From the NCBI GenBank assembly GCA_017432425.1, contig JAFRJE010000013.1, forward strand, positions 1 through 35,245: a DNA stretch of 35,245 nt, read 5' to 3'. Of the stretch, positions 1,289-1,369 are shown piece after piece; position 1 is the stretch's first letter; each line of letters starts with the position of its first letter. Both the position numbers and the translations under genes were made by a program. This DNA is from Candidatus Saccharimonadota bacterium (GTDB lineage: Bacteria; Patescibacteriota; Saccharimonadia; Saccharimonadales; Saccharimonadaceae). The notes under the pieces were generated by a model that worked only from the letters and a program-made list of their open reading frames with translations, was not told the origin of the DNA and made no database searches.

Positions 1289-1317
1289 ATTATATTGAAC
1301 AATTTTTATGTTGTCAA
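1289..1317 (-). promoter_or_regulatory. Consensus promoter of the ATPase gene
   Basis: TTGACA (1312-1317) and TATAAT (1289-1294) are separated by 17 nt on the minus strand, a perfect sigma70-type match. It gives a leader of roughly 12 nt containing an AAAGGAT SD before the ATG at 1270. The spacer contains one of four copies of an 11-bp operator-like half-site, so the promoter is probably repressible. Confidence 0.85.
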
Positions 1318-1369
1318 GAAAATTGTTCAGTTGAGTGAACAATTTTACTAGAAAGCGGAAAATTGTTCA
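1296..1369. repeat. Symmetrical array of four 11-bp half-sites (candidate operator)
   Basis: The 11-mer TGAACAATTTT occurs at 1296-1306 and 1336-1346, and its exact reverse complement at 1319-1329 and 1359-1369. Gaps are 12, 6 and 12 bp, so the whole 74-bp array is symmetrical about position 1332.5. The first copy lies between the -35 and -10 boxes of the ATPase promoter and the second adjoins the -35. The central pair can form an 11-bp hairpin with a 6-nt loop, but no T-run suited to a terminator follows it. Operator function is inference. Confidence 0.75.

Follow-up and report, generated by a model that had tools for sequence, protein, structure and literature searches.

A proposed autoregulatory operator of four half-sites at the promoter of a PDC-S01 ATPase gene and its close homologues

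Related regulators and the ATPase of the window

The controller (C) proteins of restriction-modification systems are small, separate helix-turn-helix (HTH) proteins that set their own expression through private repeated operators on mobile defence genes, and the winged helix of Orc1/Cdc6 reads inverted repeats. In the AbiE abortive infection system, the winged-helix protein AbiEi represses its own abiE promoter by binding to 11-bp inverted repeats (PMC3985639). Among PADLOC's phage-defence candidates, most of which have yet to be validated experimentally, PDC-S01 has been ranked the fourth commonest defence across prokaryotes (PMC12988326). An AAA+ATPase-HTH-RecB nuclease family, arCOG03166, was listed as likely defence in an earlier survey (PMC4158269). 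Published descriptions of PDC-S01 (PMC12988326, PMC13356809) cover prevalence and domains, and no operator or autoregulation was found in them. DUF4143 is named in one open-access paper, on Thermus Argonaute. No report of operators for DUF4143 ATPases was found in the open-access literature; a four-site operator with a residue-to-base code was found nowhere described and may have been noticed earlier.

The window, a stretch of 35,245 nucleotides from a Candidatus Saccharimonadota bacterium, encodes at 86 to 1270 on the minus strand a 394-residue ATPase of the order AAA_14, winged helix-turn-helix (wHTH) and DUF4143, the proposed autorepressor. Its Pfam matches were AAA_14 (1.5e-32, 112.8 bits, cut-off 27) and DUF4143 (2.4e-18, 66.8 bits, cut-off 28.1) only, both above the curated cut-offs in one protein, the combination by which PDC-S01 is recognised. 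PADLOC placed the protein in the same family, PDC-S01 (E 5e-115), and 28 of 28 aligned members matched PDC-S01 models. The AlphaFold model (mean pLDDT 93.3, pTM 0.92) has the ATPase first, then a winged helix with helices 203-215, 223-232 and 239-251 and a wing at 255-277, and then the C-terminal part. The winged helix (residues 203-277, recognition helix 239-251, mean pLDDT 93) is encoded at 440 to 664 on the minus strand. In the C-terminal part of the aligned members, a candidate PD-(D/E)XK nuclease, E323-x-D325 and Q338 were invariant, and no lysine followed Q338 (QVA, QVS or QIC).

A sequence search of the PDB with the ATPase gave no match at E ≤ 1. The closest solved folds were the archaeal ATPases SSO1545 and PABY2304, followed by plant NLRs, CED-4 and Orc1, with Z scores of 16.4 over 261 residues for 2fna, 15.7 for 2qen and 11.2 for Orc1 (2v1u); 2qby was, like 2v1u, among the fold neighbours. 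An ATPase followed by a winged helix, with a matching fold, thus places the model in the STAND/Orc-Cdc6 group (SSO1545, MalT, IniR, NLRs). Compared with these proteins, however, PDC-S01 ends in DUF4143, reported as PD-(D/E)XK-like, and the proposed target is the ATPase's own promoter, neither an origin nor a metabolic regulon.

The closest working analogue of the window ATPase appears to be AbiEi. Both are winged-helix proteins of a defence locus with perfect 11-bp inverted repeats around their own promoter, repression and the defence role being proposed in the present case. AbiEi, in contrast, is an antitoxin without an ATPase, from a two-gene operon with two repeats, whereas the window locus has four half-sites, no partner gene and a single gene that would be regulator and presumed effector together. 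Membership in AbiE, which pairs its regulator with the AbiEii nucleotidyltransferase in a bicistronic unit, was rejected because the 54 loci had no widely shared partner gene and the Pfam matches of the protein were ATPase and DUF4143 only. Unlike the separate C proteins, the window ATPase itself carries the reader domain.

Array geometry in the window and in close homologues

The array at 1296-1369 consists of four exact TGAACAATTTT half-sites in alternating orientation, separated by 12, 6 and 12 bp and spanning 74 bp, exactly as had been described in the original prediction. The outermost, upstream half-site F1 lies at 1359-1369 on the minus strand, and R1, inverted relative to F1 after a gap of 12, at 1336-1346 on the plus strand. 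F2, at 1319-1329 on the minus strand, ends directly before the -35 box TTGACA (1312-1317, minus strand), and R2, at 1296-1306 on the plus strand, lies within the 17-bp promoter spacer and abuts the -10 box TATAAT (1289-1294, minus strand). The promoter of the ATPase gene matches the consensus at 12 of 12 positions, and the predicted placement of one copy between a perfect TTGACA and TATAAT was therefore correct. The similarity score of the array was 66 of 66, whereas 60 dinucleotide shuffles averaged 37.2 ± 1.9 and never exceeded 42, which agrees with the claim that its regularity exceeds chance. Exact TGAACAATTTT was found 17 times in the 711-kb genome, four of them paired in the window array and the other 13 as scattered singles. 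The four-site array is present once in this genome, and its inner palindrome had no second place there with three mismatches allowed. A near-copy of the half-site (1237-1247) with TATAAT-like bases is found in inverted orientation at 1237-1254, within the first ATPase codons, and is 94% identical over 17 nt with 1289-1305. This near-copy probably results from the conserved HYIEQIR peptide that is encoded there.

The close set comprised 54 distinct homologues, 53-77% identical to the window ATPase; a scan of 84,980 species had supplied approximately 30 further close homologues and two group searches approximately 20 more. They were scattered over Clostridia, Bacilli, Treponema (spirochaetes), Fibrobacter, Succinivibrio and Saccharibacteria, mostly in gut genomes. 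Arrays in the order F-R-F-R were called by eye and with a four-site scoring script. The original prediction had proposed that an operator should recur before orthologous ATPase genes, and the four-site geometry was indeed kept at the same promoter position, across phyla, in 45 of the 54, with a half-site that differed by lineage (TGAAAGATTTT, TGGACAATTTT, TGACAGATTTT, TTTAAGATTTT, TGCAAGATTTG and others). The array score was above all 60 shuffles of the locus in 30 of 34 close loci. F2 and R2 held their positions in most close homologues: the -35 box began 0-2 nt past F2 and the -10 box abutted R2 in approximately two-thirds of the 46 scored loci, with a spacer of 17. The four-site form was missing in nine of the 54, and one subclade kept mainly the promoter-proximal pair.

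All four copies at a locus changed together, and the neighbouring genes were unrelated. The common profile, built from the 45 members, read TACT, (G), core and TTTT, with fixed flanks and variable positions 4-9. Within the same genus, L042 (77% identical) had three clear TGAACAATTTT half-sites in the window's layout, and its flanks were unrelated. The 69% identical homologue (L043/L070) kept this layout with the half-site TGCATAATTTT. The gene upstream of the array was poorly conserved within the genus, and no neighbour gene was widely shared among the 54 close loci beyond one set of three.

Remnants of the locus were also found. A relic at 1250-1900 of L027 (G012, same genus) holds a 46-residue piece of an orthologue (query residues 119-154, 72% identical), joined directly to remnant half-sites TTGTTCA-N6-TGAACAATTTT-N12-AAATTGTTCA, the same sequence as in the window, as if the start of the gene had been deleted. 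In the close homologue L159 a stop follows after 75 codons, and part of the operator is retained upstream of 455. Family members were present on 240 plasmid records, including plasmids of Acinetobacter (175 of the records) and Moraxella, and 114 of the 240 were typed as mobilizable. Scans of viral contigs for close relatives returned two distant matches, two other queries returned none, and a phage-borne copy of the operator was left unsupported since the exact operator was absent from these contigs.

Co-variation of the half-site core with the winged helix

The distance between half-site cores was correlated with the distance between the proteins (Mantel r 0.45, a value that none of 5000 permutations reached). 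The correlation was strongest for residues 231-262, and residue 240 ranked first among 255 variable columns. Two residues paired with single bases of the half-site. Arg224 went with C at position 7, which was present in 18 of 18 loci with Arg and in none of the 26 without it. Residue 240 went with base 5, as Asn with A (25 of 26), Thr or Met with G (9 of 11), His with C (3 of 3) and Pro with T (3 of 3), and this pairing rule was obeyed in 40 of 44 loci. In an unguided mutual-information scan of each base, column 240 was the best for base 5 and column 224 for base 7. In the window, the Arg224 codon lies at 599-601 and the Asn240 codon at 551-553, both on the minus strand. In the AlphaFold model helix 2 begins at residue 224 and the recognition helix at residue 240, approximately, and winged helices usually contact DNA at these places.

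Shared changes were counted on a tree from which the winged-helix columns (residues 200-265) had been left out. For Arg224 and C7, five of five changes fell on the same branches, which none of 20,000 random placements reached; for residue 240 and base 5, six of eight changes fell on shared branches, compared to one of 20,000 random placements. Columns 224 and 240 were the top two of all columns for co-change on this tree. For a conservative sign test, only three to five independent pairs were well supported, too few for significance. The 224 rule was obeyed in eight of eight loci held out of the profile, the eight not all being independent. The 240 rule was broken by the half-sites with a GCG core (L174, L161-L164 and L166, where N240 occurs with C5) and in three other loci.

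The same half-site TGAACAATTTT together with R224/N240 was found in Saccharibacteria (the window and L042) and in Bacilli (L154, L169 and L171), and L070, also from Saccharibacteria, has N224/H240 and the half-site TGCATAATTTT. As judged from these sequences, it is the ATPase, and not the host lineage, that the half-site core tracks. Because geometry differs between the subfamilies of PDC-S01, the residue-to-base code is proposed for no more than the close clade.

Proposed autoregulation, alternatives and the wider family

The array is very probably a private autoregulatory operator, to which the ATPase would bind and thereby repress its own gene. The inverted repeats overlap the promoter of the presumed regulator's own gene, and the modelled wHTH has residues that match operator bases through the co-variation at 224 and 240, both of which are found with autorepressor operators. 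Since each letter change in the operator goes with a change in the part of the protein that reads DNA, the protein most likely controls its own production. Each half-site would receive the winged helix of one of four ATPase subunits, which are probably assembled as dimers or as a larger oligomer; residues 224 and 240 would read the variable core, and the fixed TACT and TTTT flanks would serve all relatives. The promoter-proximal pair flanks the -35 box and abuts the -10 box, and therefore bound protein should keep RNA polymerase away, so that the ATPase gene would limit itself to low expression. What we infer here is that the protein binds physically, that it represses and does not activate, and in what stoichiometry it does so; the position of the sites would also suggest the tight, cooperative repression of the original prediction. 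The operator moves with the gene in horizontal transfer and diverges together with the winged helix, and this joint divergence would prevent cross-regulation between paralogues of the same cell. The PDC-S01 ATPase is a suspected antiviral defence protein, and the most likely reason for keeping its gene quiet would be that it is a costly defence effector.

Activation by the same protein, in the manner of the signal-activated STAND regulators MalT or IniR, is improbable. The fold does group with STAND and Orc/Cdc6 ATPases, half-sites are present upstream, and IniR, which has an SSO1545-like ATPase domain, induces transcription from the iniBAC promoter, to which it binds (PMC5760070). In L149, L173 and L095 the fitted sites lie farther upstream of the promoter, a placement that would also fit activation. 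The conserved pair, however, lies over the -35/-10 region, where polymerase is obstructed by any bound protein. Moreover, the promoter has the full consensus in 10 of the 46 scored loci and at least 10 of 12 matches in 32 of them; being at or near consensus, it would need no activator.

The original prediction had left the choice between autoregulation and a distant repressor. No regulator gene is adjacent to the array, and operators for unlinked repressors exist in general, so that a separate trans-acting repressor encoded elsewhere might be considered. Such a protein is nevertheless slightly less probable still than activation, because host lineage fails to predict the half-site and two ATPase residues do: the TGAACAATTTT type recurs in Saccharibacteria and Bacilli, and L070 differs. 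In addition, no gene is widely common to the 54 close neighbourhoods, and no second target of the array exists elsewhere in the genome. The operator reading was thus upheld, and autoregulation, favoured by the co-variation at 224 and 240, by the lack of a widely shared neighbour gene and by the independence from host, is now its best explanation.

The chance is very small that the array is instead the end of a mobile element or an origin-like site (terminal repeat or iteron), on which the ATPase would act as a recombinase or an initiator. In favour of this are the horizontal mobility of the gene and the binding of inverted repeats by AAA-wHTH initiators such as Orc1/Cdc6, represented by the fold neighbours 2qby and 2v1u; yet the half-sites are tied to the promoter boxes at a fixed distance, the window has them on a single side of the gene (just 85 bp being available downstream), and the close loci have no replication or recombination genes in common. 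RNA hairpins (attenuator or terminator) or single-stranded structures, suggested by an RNA fold of -24 kcal/mol (z -8) that arises from the inverted repeats only, were rejected as hardly credible because the array precedes the -10 box and so lies outside the gene's own transcript, and because its stems are AT-rich and hairpins need no shared sequence in all four half-sites and predict no co-variation with protein side chains. The array was absent among the predicted terminator-like sites, lacking the GC-rich stem with a T run.

Private repeats extend beyond the close clade. A significant dyad was present in the 140 bp upstream of 40 of 77 more distant relatives, compared to 9 of 91 intergenic controls taken from the same loci (Fisher 1.5e-9). 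The dyads differed by relative (TTTTTCTTCCATGGAAGAAAAA in L019, a CTATTCCCCAAAA dyad in L178), and the subfamily operators were without one common geometry. Between L034 and L061 both arms had changed in step, from TTACGCA/TGCGTAA to TTACACA/TGTGTAA, and the paralogues of genome G206 carried different upstream repeats. Up to 11 homologues of the window ATPase were found in one gut genome (G205, G206 and G211). The second DUF4143 gene of the window's genome (L016, G000:C30) is preceded by GTGCAGTTTTGCGCTTGCCTG head to tail and then by CCAAAGTGCCAAGTTTTTCCCAGCCGAACTGCCAAGT-type repeats. Two divergent DUF4143 ATPase genes (L020 and L033, G030:C6:37192-39806) have a common region with GTTTTTACTTCCATAGCAGTAAAAAC twice, which suggests that both may be controlled jointly. 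In L031, a more distant DUF4143-like ATPase, a direct repeat of 33 bp (AAAACTCGTGGGAAAAACTTGCAATTTTGAACC) occurs three times upstream of 428.

A more tentative extension of autoregulation is that PDC-S01 ATPases on their own promoter are resting immune sensors, in which an ATP- or phage-triggered, STAND-like change would release the operator. It is conceivable, if speculative, that sensing, derepression and effector action are then joined in one protein, and that private operators keep up to 11 paralogues per cell orthogonal.

Autoregulated defence-type genes are already known, and what appears to be new here is the family-wide private-operator code. If binding holds true, a winged helix of a STAND-related fold would read DNA. 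The operator would offer a cheap promoter assay for the trigger of the ATPase, with the Acinetobacter and Moraxella plasmids as tractable material for tests, and the ATPases with their operators would supply repressor-operator pairs that are already orthogonal to one another. For PDC-S01 itself, the private operator and its residue-to-base code would provide a first testable molecular activity, namely sequence-specific self-binding.
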